Virus record (IMG/VR): IMGVR_UViG_3300043466_003517 | Coordinates: 1 to 38,634 of that record | Direction: 5' to 3' (one strand) | DNA: 38,634 bases | Origin: a virus | In this document: one piece after another, positions 2,611 to 37,118 of the stretch | How the letters are laid out: the number at the start of each line of letters is the position of its first letter | How positions within the stretch are numbered: position 1 is the first letter of the stretch | Program-made: the position numbers and the translations under genes | The notes under the pieces: model-generated | Seen by the model: only the letters and a program-made list of their open reading frames with translations | Databases searched by the model: none | Told to the model about the DNA's origin: nothing

Positions 2611-3096
2611 ATGAATAAATCATATGTTTTTGTTGGTCAGCAATATGGTAAATTAACAGTAATCTCATTTTCACATCGTAAAAAATATAAAAGTGGTAGT
2701 GTAAAAAAATTTTGGAAGTGTTCTTGTGAATGCGGAGGGGAAGTTATTACCGACTCTTCAGGTTTAACAAGTTCAAGGACTAAATCTTGCGGGTGTAACA
2801 GGAATAAGGGAGGTAAGATAAACAAGGATGGATATAGATTGGTTTATGATAGGGAAGATAGAATATATAAATTCCAACATAGATATGTTTATGAAAAAGA
2901 ATATAATATCAAATTAAAACCTCATCATAATATACATCATATAAATGGAGATAGATTAGATAACAGGATTGTGAATTTGGAATTGTGGGACACATCACAA
3001 CCTAAAGGACAGAGAGTTGAAGATAAGATAATTTTCTATAAAAAATTGGTAGAAGATTATAAAGACAATCCGTTGTATAAACATTTATTTACCTAA
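2611..3096 (+). CDS. HNH homing-type endonuclease
   Basis: A 161-aa protein. The N-terminal part is a Cys-rich module (C37, C39, C41, C60, C62; FWKCSCECGG and SCGCNR) of the kind found in phage HNH nucleases. The C-terminal part has HHNIHHINGDRLDNRIVNLELW (split here: HHNIHHINGD, then RLDNRIVNLELW), an HNH_3-type core with H109/H110, N118 and N122. This start is chosen because the promoter at 2574-2606 abuts it; an upstream ATG-frame extension lacks homology-like features. Free-standing mobile nucleases of this type nick DNA and spread between phages. It stands alone among the C-rich intergenic elements. Confidence 0.85.
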   Translation: MNKSYVFVGQQYGKLTVISFSHRKKYKSGSVKKFWKCSCECGGEVITDSSGLTSSRTKSCGCNRNKGGKINKDGYRLVYDREDRIYKFQHRYVYEKEYNIKLKPHHNIHHINGDRLDNRIVNLELWDTSQPKGQRVEDKIIFYKKLVEDYKDNPLYKHLFT

Positions 3097-4070: not shown

Positions 4071-4112
4071 AATTTTTCCCTTCGGGTTGTCAATCCCCCT
4101 ACCCCCTTTTTT
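4069..4112 (+). repeat. C-rich intergenic element, copy 3
   Basis: Core CCCCCTACCCCC at 4095-4106. This copy has an extra small hairpin CCCTTCGGG in front of the core. Confidence 0.8.
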
Positions 4113-4129: not shown

Positions 4130-4137
4130 TATCTTTG
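4130..4137 (+). promoter_or_regulatory. TAnnTTTG box 4 nt before the start codon
   Basis: TATCTTTG-like box (TATCTTTG with T4130) ends 4 nt before the ATG at 4142. It would drive the gene that carries the repeat-spacer array. Confidence 0.5.
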
Positions 4138-4141
4138 CTCT

Positions 4142-4672
4142 ATGGAAATTTCAGATAAATTTAAGAAGTTTATATTTAAAAAACTATACAAGGATTTGTC
4201 CAATGTGGAGATAATTCCATATAAGGACTCCATTTGGTTTATTGATAGAGAAAATGAGCATTGGTATTTTGAATATGAAAAATCAGGTACATTGTGGTGG
4301 AGATATTATTTCTTTGAAGATTTTTTTAAGATATTTTCACTTGAATCTAATGTTTACCAATCAATTATCTCTGAATGGGTGGAAGAGGTATTAAATTGCA
4401 AGGTGGAAACAACTAAAAACTTTAAGCTTCATTTCTTTAAAGAGGTGGAAGAGGTATTAAATTGCAAGGTGGAAACAACGCTCCCTGTGTCAAGATTCCA
4501 AATCGAGCTGGTGGAAGAGGTATTGAATTGCAAGGTAGAAACAACTAAGCGTTTACATTTGGTAACGCGCAAAAGGGTGGAAGAGGTATTGAATTGCAAG
4601 GTAAAAACATCTTACCATGCAAATCAGTCACAATCCATTTTGGTGGAAGAGGTGTTAAAGGGTGATAATTAA
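4142..4672 (+). CDS. phage protein whose C-terminus is a repeat-spacer array
   Basis: A 176-aa ORF. Residues 1-78 look like an ordinary compact phage protein: MEISDKFKKFIFKKLYKDLS, IIPYKDSIWFIDRENEHWYF, and SGTLWWRYYFFEDFF. From about residue 79 the peptide VEEVLNCKVETT is repeated four times, plus a fifth VEEVL, each separated by ten unrelated residues. At the DNA level this is a 36-bp repeat / 30-bp spacer array (4378-4659). The start at 4142 is preferred over 4115 because a TAnnTTTG box ends 4 nt before it. Whether the array is translated, acts as RNA, or both cannot be decided from sequence; two of the four repeat substitutions are synonymous. The function of the N-terminal part is unknown. 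Confidence 0.75.
   Translation: MEISDKFKKFIFKKLYKDLSNVEIIPYKDSIWFIDRENEHWYFEYEKSGTLWWRYYFFEDFFKIFSLESNVYQSIISEWVEEVLNCKVETTKNFKLHFFKEVEEVLNCKVETTLPVSRFQIELVEEVLNCKVETTKRLHLVTRKRVEEVLNCKVKTSYHANQSQSILVEEVLKGDN
4378..4659 (+). CRISPR. CRISPR-like array: four 36-bp repeats, four 30-bp spacers, truncated terminal repeat
   Basis: Repeats start at 4378, 4444, 4510, 4576 and 4642, exactly 66 bp apart. Each repeat begins GGTGGAAGAGGTATT and ends AAACAAC (36 bp). Spacers at 4414-4443, 4480-4509, 4546-4575 and 4612-4641 are each 30 bp and share no visible similarity; their G+C is about 20, 50, 40 and 33 percent. Repeats 1 and 2 are identical, repeat 3 has 2 changes, repeat 4 has 4 (including both of those in repeat 3), and the last is cut off after about 18 bp. 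This is classic CRISPR geometry and decay toward the distal end, with 36/30 dimensions as in type II-C and VI-B systems. No cas gene, leader or anti-repeat is visible, and the array is in frame with the host gene. A diversified protein repeat is the alternative. Confidence 0.6.
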
Positions 4673-4676
4673 TTTC

Positions 4677-4718
4677 TAAAATTTTTTTCGTCGTTCAATT
4701 CCCCCTACCCCCTTTTTT
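4677..4718 (+). repeat. C-rich intergenic element, copy 4
   Basis: Core CCCCCTACCCCC at 4701-4712, nearly identical to copy 1. It starts a few bases after the array gene. Confidence 0.8.
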
Positions 4719-7906: not shown

Positions 7907-7929
7907 TTTTTAAATATATGAACAAAAAA

Positions 7930-8280
7930 ATGAAAAAAATTGTAAGACTAACAGAATCAGATTTAACTAAAATAGTTAAAATACTTGTCGAAGAGAGTAA
8001 GTATAAAAGAGAGTTAAAATTAAAACAAAAACTTGATAATATTTTTTTTGGTAAGGATGAATATAATGTTACAAGTGACGAAGGACAAAGAGGTTACCTA
8101 TCACAAGAATACCGTTTGAGTAAGGAAATTAGCCCAAGACAAAGAATGGATAGAATCCAACAAGTAATTGATGAATTGGAAAACTATATTGAAGACCTCA
8201 AATATTCTTTAAGAAGTGAAGAAAGTTTCACACAAAATCCTGAATATGGAAAACAGTGGGGCGATATTGAAAAAATGTAA
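7930..8280 (+). CDS. class A tagged helical protein
   Basis: A 116-aa protein. The start at 7930 fits the tag MKKIVRLTESDLTKIVK, which ends ILVE/E; an ATG four codons upstream (7918) is also possible. The rest is highly charged and helical (RQRMDRIQQVIDELENYIED). No domain is recognised. It begins 24 nt after the previous gene and ends at a terminator. Confidence 0.82.
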   Translation: MKKIVRLTESDLTKIVKILVEESKYKRELKLKQKLDNIFFGKDEYNVTSDEGQRGYLSQEYRLSKEISPRQRMDRIQQVIDELENYIEDLKYSLRSEESFTQNPEYGKQWGDIEKM

Positions 8281-16316: not shown

Positions 16317-17429
16317 ATGAGAAACCTGTTAACTGAGGTACAAAGAATTAAACAAATGATTGGTGTTCCATTGAATGAGATGGCAAAACCATCTGAACAC
16401 CATATTAAATCTATACAGACAATTTTAAGTGTTAATGGTCTTTTAAAAAAAGAGTCCGAATCACTTTTTAACCAAATTGTGGAACTCGCTGATGACCAAG
16501 TTATAAATTTTGATTTATTAGAACATGGTGTTAAAAACACATTACTCAAAAAAGGTGACAAGTATGTGTCGATTGTTAAATATTTTGAAAAAGTTCTTGG
16601 TTCTTTAAAGGACAGAGAACCTGATTCATATGAAATTGAGCCAGAACAAGATGACTATAGTTTTGAACCTGAGGAACCATCAATATTAAAGAAAAAAGTC
16701 TTTAGAAAAGAATTATATTACTTACAAGTAGAACTTCTTAAACTTCAAGAATGGTTAATGGAAACAGGTAAAACAGTTATAATTGTTTTTGAAGGAAGAG
16801 ATTCTGCAGGTAAAGGTTCAACTATCAAAAAATTTACTGAGAATTTAAATCCAAGATATTTTAATATTATCGCTCTTGGTATCCCATCTCCTGAGGAAAG
16901 ACAAGATTGGTTTGGAAGATATAAAAAACATATTAAACCTGGTATGATTAATTTCTTTGACAGAAGTTGGTATAACAGAGGTCTTGTTGAACCTGTAATG
17001 GGATATGGTTCTGAAGAAGAATATGAACATTTTATGGAAAATGTTGAGAGTTTTGAAAATGAATTAGTTGAGAAAGGAGACTATCTCTTTAAATTATGGT
17101 TCTCAATTGATAAGGAAACTCAAGCAAGACGATTTGATATGAGACAAAAATCACCACTCAAATATTGGAAGTATTCTCCAAATGATTCCAAGATGCAAGA
17201 TATGTGGGAAAGGTTTACTGAATTTAAACAAAGACTATTTGATAAGACATCTACAATAAACCATCCTTGGATTGTTTTAGACGCAAATGATAAAAAAGTA
17301 TCGGGATTGAATGCAATTAGATATGTGTTACAAAACATCCCTTATGAAAATAAAAATGAAGAATTATTGGGTAAGGATTTTCCTGAAGCAATGGCCGTTT
17401 TAAAACCTGAAACAAATGAAAATAATTGA
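16317..17429 (+). CDS. ppk2: polyphosphate kinase 2 with N-terminal tag
   Basis: A 370-aa protein. PPK2 enzymes transfer phosphate between polyphosphate and nucleotides. The kinase domain (about residues 125-350) shows Walker A FEGRDSAGKGSTIKKF (159-173), the Walker B region INFFDRSWYNRG (211-222), and WFSIDKETQARRFDMR and SPLKYWKYSPND of the lid and C-terminal part. The first 125 residues are extra compared with normal PPK2: a tag-like helix (LLTEVQRIKQMIGVPLNE, then M), a helical part and an acidic linker (EIEPEQDDYSFEPEE). It overlaps the lysozyme gene by 14 nt. If packaged, it could supply NTPs or drain host polyP early in infection. The enzyme call is firm; packaging is inference. Confidence 0.93.
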   Translation: MRNLLTEVQRIKQMIGVPLNEMAKPSEHHIKSIQTILSVNGLLKKESESLFNQIVELADDQVINFDLLEHGVKNTLLKKGDKYVSIVKYFEKVLGSLKDREPDSYEIEPEQDDYSFEPEEPSILKKKVFRKELYYLQVELLKLQEWLMETGKTVIIVFEGRDSAGKGSTIKKFTENLNPRYFNIIALGIPSPEERQDWFGRYKKHIKPGMINFFDRSWYNRGLVEPVMGYGSEEEYEHFMENVESFENELVEKGDYLFKLWFSIDKETQARRFDMRQKSPLKYWKYSPNDSKMQDMWERFTEFKQRLFDKTSTINHPWIVLDANDKKVSGLNAIRYVLQNIPYENKNEELLGKDFPEAMAVLKPETNENN

Positions 17430-25800: not shown

Positions 25801-26037
25801 GAATATCGGGGTTTGCTCACCGAAGTATCCACCCAAGATATTGTAGTCATAATACTCCAAAGATTCTTCTTCAGACATTTCCTCAGATAATTTTTTAATT
25901 ATCATATCTTTTGAATAGACAATTCTATTACCTTCTCCAAATTGCTCAGAAATTCCAACAATACAATCATCAAAATTATCAAGGATTATTGCTCCTTCGG
26001 CATATTCATCCAACATACTTCTTTCCATATTCTTCAA
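25771..26037 (-). CDS. conserved small protein
   Basis: An 88-aa protein (start 26037 or 26028). The sequence AIILDNFDDCIVGISEQFGE, NRIVYSKDMIIKKLSEEM, SEEESLEYYDYNILGGYFG and EQTPIFL is typical of a widespread phage/bacterial small protein with IVYS and YDYNIxGxYxGExTP motifs. No function is known. It overlaps the end of the epimerase gene by 32 nt and is probably cotranscribed. Confidence 0.82.
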   Translation of the reverse strand: MKNMERSMLDEYAEGAIILDNFDDCIVGISEQFGEGNRIVYSKDMIIKKLSEEMSEEESLEYYDYNILGGYFGEQTPIFLVISSHPHI

Positions 26038-26521
26038 GTGTTATAGCTTCTTCGTCTTTACCATTAATAACCATTTTCAAATCCCAACCTGTCATATATT
26101 TTGTTATTGTTTCCTTAACATCTGGAACGGAATTCCAGTTAATTGAAACTTCGCTATCTTTATTATAATCTTTATCTACAAGATAATTTACAACGGTTCC
26201 TGATTTTAAAGTTAGAAATCCGTGGGCAAAATAATTTGGAACAAAGACAGCTTGACCTGGAGCTAGTATAAACTGGTAAGTGTCACCAAAAGTTTCTTTT
26301 CTTAAATCAACACAAAAATCAACAATCTTACCTCTTATAACTGATAGTTTCTTAGTTTGAGCATGTTCCCCTTGTTGAAGGTGGAGTCCTCTAAATGTGA
26401 ATAGATTATCACTAATACTAATGTTTGATTGGCACCAATCACCAAAAAGTTTAACTGGTGCAAAACATCCCCGATTGTCCTCAAATACGGGAGATTCAAT
26501 TTGAAAAGGTTCTAAACTCAT
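26006..26521 (-). CDS. rfbC: dTDP-4-dehydrorhamnose 3,5-epimerase-like protein (RmlC/RfbC)
   Basis: A 171-aa cupin-type sugar epimerase. In the classical pathway it turns dTDP-4-keto-6-deoxyglucose into dTDP-4-keto-rhamnose. Visible features are FEDNRGCF (13-20), WCQSNISIS, FRGLHLQ with catalytic His47, GKIVDFCVDLRK, TFGDTYQF, VPNYFAHGFLTL and VNYLVDKDYNKDSE with a candidate catalytic Tyr (113 or 119). ATG 26521 is chosen over TTG 26527. The length is slightly short for the family. No other sugar genes are nearby, so it may alter a host pathway or act on another dTDP-keto sugar. Confidence 0.92.
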   Translation of the reverse strand: MSLEPFQIESPVFEDNRGCFAPVKLFGDWCQSNISISDNLFTFRGLHLQQGEHAQTKKLSVIRGKIVDFCVDLRKETFGDTYQFILAPGQAVFVPNYFAHGFLTLKSGTVVNYLVDKDYNKDSEVSINWNSVPDVKETITKYMTGWDLKMVINGKDEEAITLEEYGKKYVG

Positions 26522-26563
26522 AAACAATTATAAATCAATTTTTGTAAAATGAAAATACCAACA

Positions 26564-29992: not shown

Positions 29993-32977
29993 ATGAATAA
30001 AATTTTAGTTAACGAAGATATCATTAGAATACAGGAACTAATGAATGTGTCAAAAAAATTAAATTTAATCGGGGATAAATTAAATACAAATTTAGTCTTA
30101 GAGTCCAACGTCATAATTAAACCTTTTAGAAAAGGTATTCAGCATTTAACAGATATTTTTGACAATAAAATGAGTTATTTTGATAATAAGATTGGCAAAT
30201 ATATTGTAAATGGTTTATCAATTGGTCAAGATATTTTTGATGATATGGTTAATAAATTAAATGTTGATAAAAATTTAGATAATTTTACGGACATACAAAG
30301 AAAAATTGTTGGAAAAATTTTAAAATCTGAGACACTTTATGATGAATTATTTGCGGATGAATTGGCTGCTGATTTACTATCATTACCTGAATATATTGGA
30401 AAAACTAAAGAAGAAGTATTAGAAGATTTAGCCATTAAATTATTTGCGGCAAGTGATGAAGGAAAGGGGGGTAAAAAACTTGATGACGTATTAGTAGATG
30501 CATATACTGATAAATCTGAAACTCCGCCAAAAACATATTGGGAATATGTTGAATTAATGAAAGAATATTGGAGAAAAAAAATAGACGGATTACCGGATTA
30601 TAAAAAAGCCCCTTATAAAAAAGGTGCTAATGTAACAGGACTTGAAAAAGCTGCGGACTATGAAATGCGTTTAGTTTCGTGGGTTAGAGAAAATGTTGGA
30701 AATTTGTTTAAATCAAGACAAAAAATTGAAAAGGAATGTGTTGAATTAATTGACAGAATTAAAAGAAAAAACGAGGGGGGAGAAAATATCGGAGACGACC
30801 TAAATAAACTTTTCGACAAAATTATAACCTTAAAGGGGTCCCCAACAGAAGATATTAAAAAACTATTCCAACAATATCTAACAGAAAATCCTGATTTAAA
30901 AGATATTCCAGCATATATAGAGTGGGCTAAAAAAAATGACCTAGAAGGTTTCATATCTCAAGTTGCTGCAAGTACTTCTGATGCTACTACAAATGTTATC
31001 ATTTATAGGTTATTATCTGAAATTGAAGGGATTATACCTGTCTATTTTGAAAGATTAAGAAAACCTGACGCTGACTATTTCGATATAAAACTTAGTGGTA
31101 GAAATTGGATTAGAAGAAAAACTTGGGGTTTGATTTGGAAAGATGGTTTAACTCCTAGAGAAATTAGACTGTTAAGAGCTCAACAAGGATGGAAAGGGTG
31201 GTTAGTTGATGATTTTCTTGTAAAGGCGGTACTTGGTTTGGTAATATACCCCATGGTTGGAGATACGATTATAGACGCAGTTCTAAACGACCCTATTTTA
31301 GAATCAAAAGATAGATTAACTGATGTTTTTAAAAAAATTTGTAATTCAAGTAAAGACACAGAAGTTTCTGGTAATACCATTTTTTGTACATCAATATTTA
31401 CAGAGCTCAATAATTTGCAAGCACAAACAGAGGATAGTTTAATAAAAAGGATTAAAAATATTATACCTGATATAATCTCACAATTTGACGGGTACGATTT
31501 AGTACCATCAGATATTGATGATACTATTGGTAAGTTTTTTGAGTTTTTAGATAACAGAGGACGCACTCTAGACCAAAAAAGTATTGTGACAGTTGTAAAT
31601 GAATGGTTAGATAGAGAAAAAGTTGACCCAAATAATCCCGTGTATGCCAGATTAAAAGAATTGGGTATTGACGTTGATGACAGCAATTATCAAGAACAAG
31701 TAGATAAGGCAATTGAAAGACTTAAAGGAGAAGCCGAAGGGATGACATTAAATAAGACTGAGGAAGACTTAATGAAACAATTTCCTAACCTTAACCGTTG
31801 GATTTGGAGTGATGAAACAGGAATGGAGCTAATTGGTGACGGCTCAAAACAATTTACAGTTAAAGAATATCCTAGTGGAAAAATATATAACGCAAACAAA
31901 ACTCCAGAAGGTACTTGGGTTTGGGTATTAGATGATGGTCGAGAGTTCGATATTGGCGACGGCTCTAAACCTCAATTACTACAACAAAGGCCTACCGACC
32001 CAAACATTTCGGCAGGCGGAGAAGAATCTACAGGTATATTAACAAACAGTGAGGCTGAAAGAATTGGATTTGATTTAAATAAAGTTTTAAATGCTTTAAG
32101 GTACCAATATAATGACCGTAGTGCTCAGATTTACGACACAAATAACGACAATAAAGTAATTATTTTTTATAATGGTTATTATCTATTTGCCGAAAAAATA
32201 AATAATAAATGGTATTGGAATGGTGACAGTTCTAACCTAGTATATGGTGGTGAAGGAAGTACTGGAGAAGAAAATCAAGGGGAAACGGCACCAAGAGAGT
32301 CCTACATAAATAAAAAAAGAATGATTAATCAAGTGAATACAAAAACATTAAAAGAAAGTATTAGAAATAAAGTACTTCTTAAACACGAAGAAAAGAAATA
32401 TAAAATTAAAAAAATTAACGAAAACCTTAGAAAGTTTGAAGAAAATTTTTATTACGGCGACTATAACAAGTTCTTTGATAAAATGTTCAAACTTGCAGAA
32501 TCTTACAAGAAATCTAAACTTTATTTGAACGAAGATGATAATGTTACTTTTGACAGTGCGTTAATTCAATCAGGTTTATTTAAGGGACAAGAAGACAGAA
32601 TGAAACAAGAGTTTAGCAATTATGTTTCTAAAAATTTAGGATTAAAAGGTGAGGTTAGAAGAAATTTTGAAGATAAAGTTTCAAATTACCCATTCAATGA
32701 TATTGGACAGTTATTTACTGATACGGATAAAATGATTGACATGATTTATAAATCATTCTCCGATTCTATTTCAAATGACTCAAGTACACCTGATAATTTT
32801 ATTTCGGTATTACAATCAACAATAAAACCTTATTTAAAAACTGCAGATTTTGAAAGAAACGTCAAATCAAATTTGGCAAGCGTATCTGAACCTATAATGA
32901 ATAAAGCTAGAAAAAAGGTTGATAATTTGGTTATGAAAATTAAAGAACTTCTTGCAAAAGAAGAATCAAAAAGTTGA
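29993..32977 (+). CDS. very large class C tagged internal protein
   Basis: A 994-aa protein, the largest here. Its start, ILVNEDIIRIQELMNVSKK, is a class C variant; LVLE/S near residue 38 is a possible cleavage site. Residues about 1-390 are helical and charged. A hydrophobic segment follows near 400-430 (DDFLVKAVLGLVIYPMVGDT). Then come beta-rich units with WIWSDETGMELIGDGSK, TWVWVLDDGREFDIGDGSK and NKWYWNGDSSNLVYGG. The C-terminal 200 residues are helical (KTLKESIRNKVLLKHEEKKY) with an internal LYLNE/D site. Size, tag and lack of enzyme motifs suit an injected internal virion protein. Confidence 0.82.
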   Translation: MNKILVNEDIIRIQELMNVSKKLNLIGDKLNTNLVLESNVIIKPFRKGIQHLTDIFDNKMSYFDNKIGKYIVNGLSIGQDIFDDMVNKLNVDKNLDNFTDIQRKIVGKILKSETLYDELFADELAADLLSLPEYIGKTKEEVLEDLAIKLFAASDEGKGGKKLDDVLVDAYTDKSETPPKTYWEYVELMKEYWRKKIDGLPDYKKAPYKKGANVTGLEKAADYEMRLVSWVRENVGNLFKSRQKIEKECVELIDRIKRKNEGGENIGDDLNKLFDKIITLKGSPTEDIKKLFQQYLTENPDLKDIPAYIEWAKKNDLEGFISQVAASTSDATTNVIIYRLLSEIEGIIPVYFERLRKPDADYFDIKLSGRNWIRRKTWGLIWKDGLTPREIRLLRAQQGWKGWLVDDFLVKAVLGLVIYPMVGDTIIDAVLNDPILESKDRLTDVFKKICNSSKDTEVSGNTIFCTSIFTELNNLQAQTEDSLIKRIKNIIPDIISQFDGYDLVPSDIDDTIGKFFEFLDNRGRTLDQKSIVTVVNEWLDREKVDPNNPVYARLKELGIDVDDSNYQEQVDKAIERLKGEAEGMTLNKTEEDLMKQFPNLNRWIWSDETGMELIGDGSKQFTVKEYPSGKIYNANKTPEGTWVWVLDDGREFDIGDGSKPQLLQQRPTDPNISAGGEESTGILTNSEAERIGFDLNKVLNALRYQYNDRSAQIYDTNNDNKVIIFYNGYYLFAEKINNKWYWNGDSSNLVYGGEGSTGEENQGETAPRESYINKKRMINQVNTKTLKESIRNKVLLKHEEKKYKIKKINENLRKFEENFYYGDYNKFFDKMFKLAESYKKSKLYLNEDDNVTFDSALIQSGLFKGQEDRMKQEFSNYVSKNLGLKGEVRRNFEDKVSNYPFNDIGQLFTDTDKMIDMIYKSFSDSISNDSSTPDNFISVLQSTIKPYLKTADFERNVKSNLASVSEPIMNKARKKVDNLVMKIKELLAKEESKS

Positions 32978-33454
32978 TTTAAATAATTCCCAAGCCTGAA
33001 GGAGCTCACTACTGATAACATCTTGAAACATGGTGGGCTCCTTTGGGTAAACGGACTTTAGTCCGGCTTCTTCAGGGGTTCTATCCCCTTTTTTACTGTT
33101 ACATTTTGAACAACACGTAACCATATTGGACCAAGTATTTTGTCCTCCCTTTGATTTTGGAATAACGTGGTCAATAGTCAGATGTCTTTGACTTCCGCAA
33201 TACACACATCTAAACTTATCCCTTTTCATAATTCTATTCTTAGAGACACTTATTTTTTTGGGTCTATAATGAATATAATCAAGTAAGCGAATAATGATGG
33301 GTCTTAGAAACTCTCCAAGATAAGTTGTTATTGGTTCACCTGTAGATTGCACAACTTCGGCTTTACCCTTAAAAACAAGGTTAAATCCCCTTTTAAAGCT
33401 TGTGACATTAATGGGGGAATAATCTGAATTTAAAACTAAAACTCCTACGTTCAT
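32966..33454 (-). CDS. HNH endonuclease
   Basis: A 162-aa protein of the common bacterial/phage HNH family. The N-terminal part VGVLVLNSDYSPINVTSFKR and FNLVFKGKAEVVQ leads to the zinc-binding HNH core FRCVYCGSQRHLTIDHVIPK, SKGGQNTWSNMVTCCSKCNS, KKGDRTPEEAG (C-x2-C ... DH ... N ... C-x2-C). It cuts DNA; its role here could be genome mobility or packaging-linked cutting. A host-type promoter (33460-33491) lies 5 nt before the ATG. The 3' end overlaps the 994-aa gene by 12 nt. Confidence 0.93.
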   Translation of the reverse strand: MNVGVLVLNSDYSPINVTSFKRGFNLVFKGKAEVVQSTGEPITTYLGEFLRPIIIRLLDYIHYRPKKISVSKNRIMKRDKFRCVYCGSQRHLTIDHVIPKSKGGQNTWSNMVTCCSKCNSKKGDRTPEEAGLKSVYPKEPTMFQDVISSELLQAWELFKSTF

Positions 33455-33530: not shown

Positions 33531-34502
33531 TTGAAAAATATAATAAGATTAACCGAATCAGATTTAACAAAAATTGTTAAAAGAATCTTGAAGGAACAAG
33601 GAGCGGTTGGTATAATTAGGAAAATTATTGCTCCTTCTTCTGATGATTTGGTTAAAGTTTTTGGCGACGATGTGGCTAAAAGTGTAGAATTGGCATTAGC
33701 AAAGGCTATTAATAAACAAGGCATAAATATCGTCGAAAAACAAGGTAGTTTATATTTAAAATCCCTCAGAGGAGGTGAGTATTCTCTCAAATCGATAAAA
33801 AGTGCTTTAGATGCAGTATCAAGGGGAGACTTAACTATTGACCAAGTATTAACTACATTTCCAAGAAATCTTGCGGATGGCTCTGAATTTAGAAGTTTGT
33901 TTCAAAATATTAAACCTAAAGCATCGTCACAAGTTGCTGGACAAAAAATTTTACAATCATCTTTTACACCATTATCTCAAATACCTCAAAAGGAACAAGA
34001 AAGACTTTTGGGTATTTTAAACAATTCAAGTATTTCTAAAACATGGTTACCATTTGGCCCCTCACCTGAAAAAATGAGTGGTTGGAAATTTCACGTATAT
34101 GGTGAAGATTTATACGATTCAGCTTATTTGTATGATAAATTATTACCAGTAACTCAAAAGTGGGGAGCACATGCAAAGGTAGGAGTTGGGGTTGAGTTTT
34201 TACCAGGTACAGTACAATGGGGTAAAAAAGGGGCAACTATTTACATTCCACCTGAAGTTATAAAAAATGGAAAACAAACAGAATTATTATCAGACATACA
34301 AAGTGCGATAGGTGGATATAATAAAAAAGGTACTATACAGGGTGATAAATCCATAACTGATAATATAACATATAGGTATGAACTTAGTGGTGAAATTCCA
34401 TATGGTGAGGGTATAAATATGAGTCAGTATAGACAAATGTATCAATCAAACACTGGAGGTTCCTATAAACCCAATAATGTAACTGATTTATTTGGCCAAT
34501 AA
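33531..34502 (+). CDS. class A tagged protein, possible lyase-like domain
   Basis: A 323-aa protein with a TTG start, fixed by the tag KNIIRLTESDLTKIVKRILK, then EQ (ILKE/Q). The C-terminal half has GWKFHVYGEDLYDSAYLYDK, AHAKVGVGVEFLPG and WGKKGATIYIPPEV. The order KxH...K...GK-x-x-TIY-x-P weakly resembles the phosphothreonine-lyase-like domains of class III/IV lanthipeptide synthetases and the OspF group. I regard this as a hint only. If right, it would be an injected effector. Confidence 0.8.
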   Translation: MKNIIRLTESDLTKIVKRILKEQGAVGIIRKIIAPSSDDLVKVFGDDVAKSVELALAKAINKQGINIVEKQGSLYLKSLRGGEYSLKSIKSALDAVSRGDLTIDQVLTTFPRNLADGSEFRSLFQNIKPKASSQVAGQKILQSSFTPLSQIPQKEQERLLGILNNSSISKTWLPFGPSPEKMSGWKFHVYGEDLYDSAYLYDKLLPVTQKWGAHAKVGVGVEFLPGTVQWGKKGATIYIPPEVIKNGKQTELLSDIQSAIGGYNKKGTIQGDKSITDNITYRYELSGEIPYGEGINMSQYRQMYQSNTGGSYKPNNVTDLFGQ

Positions 34503-35559: not shown

Positions 35560-35826
35560 ATGAAAAAAATAGTTAGATTAACAGAATCAGATTTAACAAG
35601 AATTGTTGTAAAAATTTTAAATGAGCAACCAACCGCGGATACTACAAACACAAAATTACCTCCTTCTTGTGGAAGTCAGGGGATTCAACGTGTAAAATCC
35701 GCTTTGAGTGGAGGTGGGTTGGAAAAAATTGAATTCGACTATCAAAACGGGGCCGCCTTTTTCAGTTTAAAGGGGGAAGGTAAAGTTTGTGGAGTTAAGA
35801 TACAAGATTTTATGGGAATGTTTTAA
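35560..35826 (+). CDS. class A tagged small protein
   Basis: An 88-aa protein. Tag MKKIVRLTESDLTRIVVK, ending ILNE/Q. The mature part of about 65 aa has two Cys (PPSCGSQGIQRVKSALSGGG, GEGKVCGVKIQDFMGMF) and a beta character. Not recognised. It ends in front of a terminator. Confidence 0.83.
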   Translation: MKKIVRLTESDLTRIVVKILNEQPTADTTNTKLPPSCGSQGIQRVKSALSGGGLEKIEFDYQNGAAFFSLKGEGKVCGVKIQDFMGMF

Positions 35827-35850
35827 AATTAAAAAATTAATAGTTAAATT

Positions 35851-35880
35851 CCATCTTCAAGAGAGATGGGGTTTTTTATT
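35851..35880 (+). terminator. rho-independent terminator
   Basis: CCATCT (35851-35856) pairs with AGATGG (35864-35869) and is followed by GGTTTTTT. Confidence 0.75.
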
Positions 35881-35888
35881 TGATAGAA

Positions 35889-35895
35889 TATTTAT
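35889..35895 (+). promoter_or_regulatory. candidate late-promoter motif TATTTAT
   Basis: TATTTAT, overlapping TATAAATA, lies 13 nt before the ATG at 35909. Confidence 0.5.
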
Positions 35896-35908
35896 AAATA
35901 AAAATAAT

Positions 35909-36214
35909 ATGAAAAAAATAGTTAGACTTACAGAATCAGATTTATCAAGAATTGTTAAAAGAACAATTATGGAAATGGATATGGATATGGATATGGATTC
36001 AGAAACAATAAATGGTTTAAAACGACAAATGGACATGGAAGTTGAAGAAACAGATAGTGTGGATGCATCATCAGTAATTGAAGATTTTATGCAATCAATT
36101 GCTGATATGAGACCTGAAAAACAACTAGAAGCTATAGAGGATATGATGTTCCAATTAAAAATGTATAAAACAAATTTAGGTTTTGCCGGTAAGGGAAACC
36201 CAAATGCTAGATAA
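35909..36214 (+). CDS. class A tagged acidic protein
   Basis: A 101-aa protein. The start at 35909 gives the tag MKKIVRLTESDLSRIVKR, with a TIME/M end. A run of four Met-Asp units (MDMDMDMDSE) encoded by a GGATAT microsatellite follows directly. The rest is acidic and helical (VIEDFMQSIADMRPEKQLEA). Function unknown. Confidence 0.83.
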   Translation: MKKIVRLTESDLSRIVKRTIMEMDMDMDMDSETINGLKRQMDMEVEETDSVDASSVIEDFMQSIADMRPEKQLEAIEDMMFQLKMYKTNLGFAGKGNPNAR

Positions 36215-36540: not shown

Positions 36541-36614
36541 GCATCTTTAGCTCAGTTGGTCAGAGCGAAGCCCTCATAAGGCTTGGGTCGCAGGTTCGAG
36601 CCCTGCAAGATGCA
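36541..36614 (+). tRNA. tRNA-CAU (Met or Ile2)
   Basis: A full cloverleaf: acceptor GCATCTT / AAGATGC with discriminator A, D-arm with AGCTCAGTTGGT, anticodon stem AAGCC / GGCTT with loop CTCATAA (anticodon CAT), T-arm GCAGG-TTCGAGC-CCTGC. No CCA is encoded. Elongator Met and lysidine-modified Ile2 cannot be told apart safely by eye. Confidence 0.95.
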
Positions 36615-37046: not shown

Positions 37047-37118
37047 GCCTCTATAGTTAAAGGGATATAACTAGGGATTTCTAATCCCTCATTCCAGGTT
37101 CGAATCCTGGTAGAGGTA
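37047..37118 (+). tRNA. tRNA-Arg (UCU)
   Basis: Acceptor GCCTCTA / TAGAGGT with one G-T pair and discriminator A; D-arm GTTA...TAAC; anticodon stem AGGGA / TCCCT with loop TTTCTAA (anticodon TCT); T-arm CCAGG-TTCGAAT-CCTGG. It reads AGA/AGG, codons used heavily in the phage genes here. Confidence 0.95.

Follow-up and report, generated by a model that had tools for sequence, protein, structure and literature searches.

Phage genes that end in in-frame CRISPR-like repeat-spacer arrays and gain units of unrelated DNA

We found that the 3′ end of a phage gene is laid out as a CRISPR-like repeat-spacer array, and comparison within its family showed that such arrays acquire units of unrelated DNA with a length ruler and a polarity like those of CRISPR arrays, while the reading frame is kept open by selection. 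The gene lies in a stretch of viral DNA of 38,634 nt (positions 1 to 38,634 of IMG/VR record IMGVR_UViG_3300043466_003517), here called the window. We propose, with confidence slightly above even, that the gene end acts as a CRISPR-array-like integration site, which would be fed by a Cas1-Cas2-like machine in trans and kept in frame.

An in-frame repeat-spacer array at the end of a phage gene

The array occupies 4378-4659 and lies in frame within a plus-strand ORF of 176 aa (P0001, 4142..4672, from ATG 4142 to TAA 4672), homologues of which were found in about 40 viral contigs. Repeats start at 4378, 4444, 4510, 4576 and 4642, exactly 66 bp apart, each unit consisting of a 36-nt repeat and a 30-nt spacer, so that five repeat starts enclose four spacers. 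The first full repeat, on the 'leader' side (4378..4413, +; 36 nt), reads G + VEEVLNCKVET + AC, and repeat 2 (4444..4479, +) is identical to it. A few changes were seen in the next two copies, with 2 differences in repeat 3 (4510..4545, +) and more divergence in repeat 4 (4576..4611, +). Repeat 5 (4642..4659, +) is a truncated terminal copy with 18 nt matched, after which come the final codons and the stop, so that the protein ends in VEEVLKGDN. The spacers, also on the plus strand, encode KNFKLHFFKE (spacer 1, 4414..4443, 30 nt), LPVSRFQIEL (spacer 2, 4480..4509), KRLHLVTRKR (spacer 3, 4546..4575) and YHANQSQSIL (spacer 4, 4612..4641). At the DNA level the repeat is out of register with the codons, its first base being the third of the preceding codon and its last base the second of a Thr codon.

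The 26-nt repeat core occurred four times, against none expected from 100 shuffles, and the four spacers had 3-11 of 30 bases in common in pairwise comparison, which is about the chance level. Tandem Repeats Finder did not report the array, as expected because the spacers are unrelated. Coordinates, shuffles and spacer comparison therefore agree with an earlier note on this DNA, which had described five 36-bp repeats 66 bp apart, separated by unrelated 30-bp spacers and lying in frame.

The array gene belongs to a phage gene family

Array ORFs were gathered by profile searches of viral contigs and of fetched related phage contigs, giving 51 homologous array ORFs with 304 repeat intervals and 208 distinct spacers. 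Array genes in alignment A2 share 36-63% identity with P0001. Unit spacing was exactly 22 codons in 287 of 302 cases, arrays carried up to 16 spacers, and two to four array genes stood side by side in several genomes. Identical arrays were recovered from independent metagenomes (for example L027, L028 and L029), so an assembly artefact is unlikely. Moreover, each genome carries many genes with the same N-terminal domain, and at the ends of some of these stand CRISPR-like repeats that have taken up a single insertion without regard to frame. The bacterial genomes searched contained no homologue of the array gene, and a guess at the host by way of a host-like gene gave only a distant Gracilibacteria match.

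We also noticed a non-coding CRISPR-like array in G022 (L179:9489-9780), with four repeats (GTTGTATATACCTTTCAAATTGTGATGTCAAACAAC) and a truncated one, and spacers of 30, 22, 29 and 30 nt. It lies directly 3′ of an unrelated small gene, indicating that CRISPR-like arrays of this sort are not confined to one gene family.

Spacers turn over as whole units and with polarity

Pairwise comparison of the 208 unique spacers gave 33 pairs with at most 6 differences, representing the same spacer across strains, while the rest lay near chance (mean about 22/30) and only two pairs were intermediate. This bimodal distribution indicates that spacers do not diverge gradually. Adjacent repeats were 86% identical, compared with 28% for adjacent spacers, which equals chance. 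Arrays differed by whole units between strains whose upstream DNA was 93-100% identical; the N-domain DNA of L027 and L033, for instance, is identical over 224 nt, and their arrays, of 8 and 7 spacers, have only 4 in common. The earlier claim that new DNA of fixed length had been gained between the repeats is thus borne out by turnover at upstream identity of up to 100% with almost no intermediates. We also looked for the contrary case, conserved spacers that behave as ordinary linkers without turnover, and the outcome spoke against it.

Among 53 pairs of related arrays, the 3′-most spacer was common to both in 34 and the 5′-most in 6, and mismatches to the first repeat increased from 1.9 to 6.7 along the arrays, towards the 3′ end. 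Shared spacers kept the same order in every pair of arrays compared. Judged from the sequences, mostly shared spacers at the 3′ end, mostly new ones at the 5′ end and repeat decay towards 3′ are the polarity of a CRISPR array, and polarised spacer gain with a degenerate trailer end here accompanies near-identical repeats and unrelated spacers of near-constant length, as in CRISPR arrays. Some units were gained or lost inside arrays, away from the 5′ end, which occurs in CRISPR arrays too.

We then considered the origin of the spacers. Their dinucleotides carry a natural-DNA signature (TA 0.66, AA 1.18, CA 1.15), which argues against untemplated synthesis, and their G+C content is 39%, compared with 31% for these phages. 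By composition, the spacers look like fragments of other genomes rather than untemplated DNA. Their codon-position composition is coding-like, and a mixture model for the frame of the spacer source fitted in-frame coding DNA and stop-free random DNA without separating them. The third spacer base was A in 49% (about 30% at other positions), possibly a trace of inserted-DNA trimming or a residue preference.

Insertions have a fixed length and are selected for an open frame

In the array subfamily to which the window belongs, all 300 of 300 insertions were multiples of three and 286 were exactly 30 nt long. All 181 spacer clusters were stop-free in the coding frame, compared with 37-66% in the other frames. 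Since arrays were collected as open frames, regions beyond the stops were inspected, and only two arrays continued past the stop. An array in G026 (L047/L011) runs on past its stop codon with a near-perfect repeat (35/36) 66 nt further and a degenerate one 65 nt beyond that, and is the clearest case of untranslated units in the array subfamily.

A sister subfamily with the same domain, VENTLQ, has WVENTLQMKVTNT at its end, and after its repeat, GTTGAGAATACCCTNCAAATGAAGGTCACAAACACC, come one or a few insertions and then a truncated last repeat. The 14 insertions measured in 12 such genes were all 29, 30 or 31 nt long (6, 3 and 5 cases), lengths like those of CRISPR arrays, and 11 of the 14 were not multiples of 3. 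The second repeat is usually read in another frame, and a stop follows. Out-of-frame units of 29-31 nt were located in sister N-domain genes at L102:1022-1258 (minus), L089:15611-15720 (minus) and L013:5190-5330, and the motif W(L/V)(E/D)E(T/A)(L/Y)(K/N)LxG(Y/V)TT at G007:48300, G016:40176 and G019:12837. On closer inspection, the apparent non-coding mini-arrays of G003 and G009 belong to the ends of sister N-domain genes, where they are read out of frame.

Both subfamilies are accounted for by insertion that measures length but is blind to frame, with strong selection for open frames acting afterwards, and the comparison between them shows, at the sequence level, in-frame selection of the array. 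Furthermore, changes within shared spacers comprised 14 synonymous and 11 other substitutions, an excess of synonymous changes over expectation (p about 0.001-0.01) that, on only 25 changes, suggests that the peptides are under selection.

The repeat is conserved as DNA and resembles CRISPR repeats

The base before the Val codon, in which the final spacer codon ends, was G in 228 of 237 internal cases, compared with 28% expected from the amino acids. Six repeat codons had no synonymous variation across 23 lineages when only sequences with the commonest residue at that position were counted: GTG (23/23), GAA (23/23), GAG (19/19), AAT (23/23), AAG (20/20) and ACA (16/16). GTG, invariant in the repeat, has a genome usage of 9%, and the 75 codons upstream of the repeat show ordinary codon choice at all but a few isolated positions. 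This comparison indicates that the repeat is conserved at the DNA level and that the constraint is confined to it. In sister genes that have no long array, the first-position codon is mostly GTT (21/28).

The conserved repeat bases form two ends and a central stretch, and positions 1 and 36 are G and C at 95%. Type II Cas1-Cas2 depends on a guanine at each of positions 1 and 36 and on a ruler close to the far end (PMC6895254). The published Flavobacterium repeats GTTGGGAAAGCCCTTATTTTGAAGGGTATCTACAAC and GTTGTAACTGCCCTTATTTTGAAGGGTAAACACAAC have spacers of 29-30 nt (PMC5395568); their form, together with PMC8092290, leads us to assign them to the VI-B type. On average, 30 distinct first repeats matched one of these Flavobacterium VI-B repeats at 22.9/36 positions (range 19-27), compared with 18.6 for synonymous recodings and 12.9 (sd 2.2) for random 36-mers. 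Other 36-mers in the window reach 22-24/36 by chance, and the array lineages are related, so that the comparisons with CRISPR repeats are not independent; we therefore regard the VI-B likeness of the sequence as supporting rather than decisive. The dimensions, too, resemble those of VI-B arrays, as the earlier note had said. As a potential handle for RNA processing, the repeat differs from VI-B repeats, as its RNA lacks the VI-B stem (-0.7 vs -10.9 kcal/mol).

Searches for protospacers, Cas1 and reverse transcriptase

A search of 2.7 Mb of related phage DNA with the 208 spacers yielded no protospacer, and matches outside arrays were mostly chance-like short stretches. The longest exact non-array stretch was 19 nt, and one extra-array match proved to be a unit of a separate array-like ORF. 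Likewise, 65 spacers had no protospacer in GenBank phages. In IMG/VR, the 20-nt cores of window spacers 2, 3 and 4 had no match whatever, and two multi-strain spacers matched only contigs already known as array carriers; the recovery of these contigs shows that the IMG/VR search works. The earlier note had proposed a search for outside matches to the spacers, and no targets emerged from the related phages, IMG/VR (5 spacers) or GenBank phages (65 spacers).

Cas1 (PF01867) was not detected in 12 related records, which include contigs of 195-326 kb and are possibly incomplete, while control genomes were positive. Reverse transcriptase (PF00078) was not detected in the same 12 records, and no template copy was present in the 2.7 Mb of related phage DNA. 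We saw no cassette store and no conserved neighbouring integrase in the related phages.

A model for array growth and its alternatives

In the proposed model, about 30 bp of natural DNA would be inserted at a repeat, mostly the first, by a length-measuring Cas1-Cas2-like complex, and the 36-bp repeat would be duplicated with each insertion. New units would thus mostly enter at the 5′ end as old units decay at the 3′ end. The complex would act in trans and would most likely belong to the host, as the adaptation complex of its type II-C/VI-B CRISPR system. Because Cas1 was absent from the 12 related records, the complex would be the host's, which is plausible by analogy with Flavobacteria: in F. 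columnare the II-C Cas1 also serves the VI-B array, acting in trans, and each of the two arrays has 36-bp repeats (PMC8092290). In the array subfamily, an insertion would be retained only if it preserves the frame, its length being nearly always exactly 30 bp, and brings in no in-frame stop; each would add 22 residues to a hypervariable C-terminal tail of 10-residue peptides.

Acquisition of units of unrelated DNA, its polarity and its length ruler are shown by comparison of the family's sequences, while we infer which enzyme acts, where the spacers come from and that the peptide tail, rather than translation as such, is the selected trait. The strict translation is most simply read as serving a changing set of displayed peptides, although an open frame would also be favoured if translating ribosomes protect the mRNA. 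We tentatively suggest, at a little less than even confidence, that CRISPR adaptation has become a means of diversifying protein, in which host Cas1-Cas2 writes foreign DNA into the gene ends as translated peptides, which would make the tail a heritable and continually renewed repertoire. Counting against a Cas1-Cas2-like machine are the failure of every tested spacer to yield a protospacer, the gain and loss of units inside arrays and not solely at the 5′ end, the repeat that lacks a CRISPR-type stem, and the absence of Cas1 from the 12 related records and of the array from every bacterial genome searched.

We weighed these results against four other explanations. A recombinase unrelated to Cas1, of phage or host, might insert or swap the 66-bp units, for example through gene conversion, with a co-infecting phage's arrays or an unseen cassette store as donor, and the resemblance to CRISPR would then be convergent. 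The absence of Cas1 from the relatives would fit, internal gains and losses with shared spacer order suggest recombination between arrays, and several array genes adjoin in one genome. However, recombination between arrays makes no new 30-nt sequences, neither a cassette store nor a conserved neighbouring integrase was seen, and a 29-31 nt ruler combined with a 36-nt duplication is what CRISPR adaptation produces; we judge this explanation unlikely, though a serious one. The reading raised in the earlier note, a mini-CRISPR directed at rival viruses, would have the mRNA cut into guide RNAs for use by host Cas13b or Cas9 against rival phages, with translation incidental. Virus-borne mini-arrays are known (PMC6858448), and the dimensions, polarity and VI-B-like repeat would suit one. 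This use fared poorly: protospacers were found neither in the 2.7 Mb of related phages nor in IMG/VR (5 spacers) or GenBank phages (65 spacers), the VI-B stem is missing, Cas1 was not detected in the 12 related records, and the strict keeping of frame and the synonymous bias of changes indicate an array selected for translation, of which a guide-RNA array has no need. We consider it improbable.

The gene ends might instead be decoys that imitate the CRISPR repeats of the host and so draw off its adaptation complex or its Cas proteins, with spacers as by-products of such hits. Mimicry of CRISPR repeats by phages is known (PMC10651486), and the many N-domain genes per genome, some with CRISPR-like repeat ends and a single frame-blind insertion, would be in line with it. 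Against decoys, the RNA anti-CRISPRs (Racrs) do not code for protein, spacers that arise as by-products would be expected to match the infecting phage often and none do in the 2.7 Mb of related phages, and selection for frame in the long arrays would be left without explanation; the odds of this being correct seem to us slim. Protein-coding repeats, finally, are a known and common source of false CRISPR calls (PMC5294841), and the in-frame position of the array within a gene is as expected of an ordinary tandem-repeat protein with fast-evolving linkers. Intervening sequence that is copied and gradually diverges was not what we found: spacer distances are bimodal, turnover proceeds by units at 93-100% gene identity, the repeat is constrained as DNA, and sister genes carry insertions of 29-31 nt. 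A false call of this kind is very hard to credit.

If the growth proposed in our preferred model, insertion by a Cas1-Cas2-like complex, is CRISPR adaptation, the machinery would have a second use beyond immunity, recruited by the phage that it normally attacks; if another enzyme is at work, it would be an integrase not yet described, with a ruler like that of CRISPR systems. In both cases, the family offers a direct test bed with defined target sites and many natural arrays, and its sister genes display insertions unfiltered by reading frame. To our knowledge, there is no known case in which new protein sequence arises because outside DNA is inserted into a reading frame regularly and at a measured length.

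Relation to known systems

We found no published precedent for in-frame CRISPR-like arrays in the literature covered, which excludes preprints and most subscription journals. The mini-CRISPR arrays of the archaeal SPV viruses (PMC6858448; reviewed in PMC11656645) are likewise Cas-less repeat-spacer units in a virus genome that differ in spacers among close relatives, with host machinery presumed. However, they carry 1-2 spacers, leaders, host-identical repeats and spacers against related viruses (PMC6858448, PMC11656645), whereas the phage arrays are in frame, hold up to 16 spacers, have repeats that belong to the coding 3′ end of the gene itself and had no targets in the related phages. Flavobacterium VI-B and II-C arrays share the 36-nt repeat, spacers of about 30 nt and polarised growth, the VI-B repeats have similar ends (GNTG...CAAC), and VI-B adaptation in trans has been shown (PMC5395568, PMC8092290). 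In contrast to these, the phage arrays are coding, lack cas genes and a stem-forming repeat, and have a gene upstream instead of an AT-rich leader.

Racrs and solitary repeat units are also phage sequences like CRISPR repeats, but Racrs are small non-coding RNAs from solitary repeats, with no type VI example reported there and no spacer growth (PMC10651486). The array differs from a Racr, as it appears from its sequence to be coding, multi-copy and frame-selected. Cas1-Cas2 can integrate spacers at non-CRISPR sites (Nivala et al. 2018, cited in PMC11788318), and its off-target sites in vitro resemble the leader-repeat junction (PMC6895254). Such integration is experimental and off-target, whereas in the phage arrays it would be recurrent, conserved and frame-selected. 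Diversity-generating retroelements similarly give phages hypervariable C-terminal protein parts; the array differs in that it gains whole new units rather than adenine substitutions, and neither a reverse transcriptase (PF00078, 12 records) nor a template copy accompanies it.

The array protein and its genomic surroundings

The N-terminal domain (4142..4377, +; about residues 1-79) is predicted by AlphaFold2 to adopt a confident alpha/beta fold (pLDDT >90) and has no relative of known function: no convincing fold match was obtained in the PDB, and its structural relatives were only uncharacterised phage proteins. The array tail has no confident predicted structure, and a second model, with a longer array, was also of low confidence. 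Pfam gave no significant match for the array gene and Rfam nothing at the array. The PHROG profile phrog_2294 (E 3.5e-4) was rejected as an identity for the domain, since the match covered only the second half of the profile and was seen in 1 of 40 relatives.

Directly 5′ of the start codon, TATCTTTG (4130..4137, +) is presumably a Bacteroidota-type -7 promoter element (motif TAnnTTTG). An identical 19-nt sequence, TCCCCCTACCCCCTTTTTT, occurs at 4094-4112 and 4700-4718, after the upstream gene and after the array gene, and the two copies are possibly terminators. Many otherwise different proteins of the window carry a common tag, M(K)KIVRLTESDLxxIVKRxIxE, at or near the N-terminus (681-1109, 1122-1529, 2155-2448, 7918-8280, 33531-34502 and 35789-36214), as if it were a common targeting sequence or a cleaved leader. 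Others share MRQLFxIxESEKxRILEMHENATKK or MKNxLNEELxRMxxLFxYxKGxVISEQ. The window also encodes a polyphosphate kinase 2 (16317-17429; PF03976, E 8e-73), a dTDP-4-dehydrorhamnose 3,5-epimerase (26006-26527), HNH nucleases (2614-3096 and 32966-33454) and tRNA genes (36541-36614 and 37047-37118).
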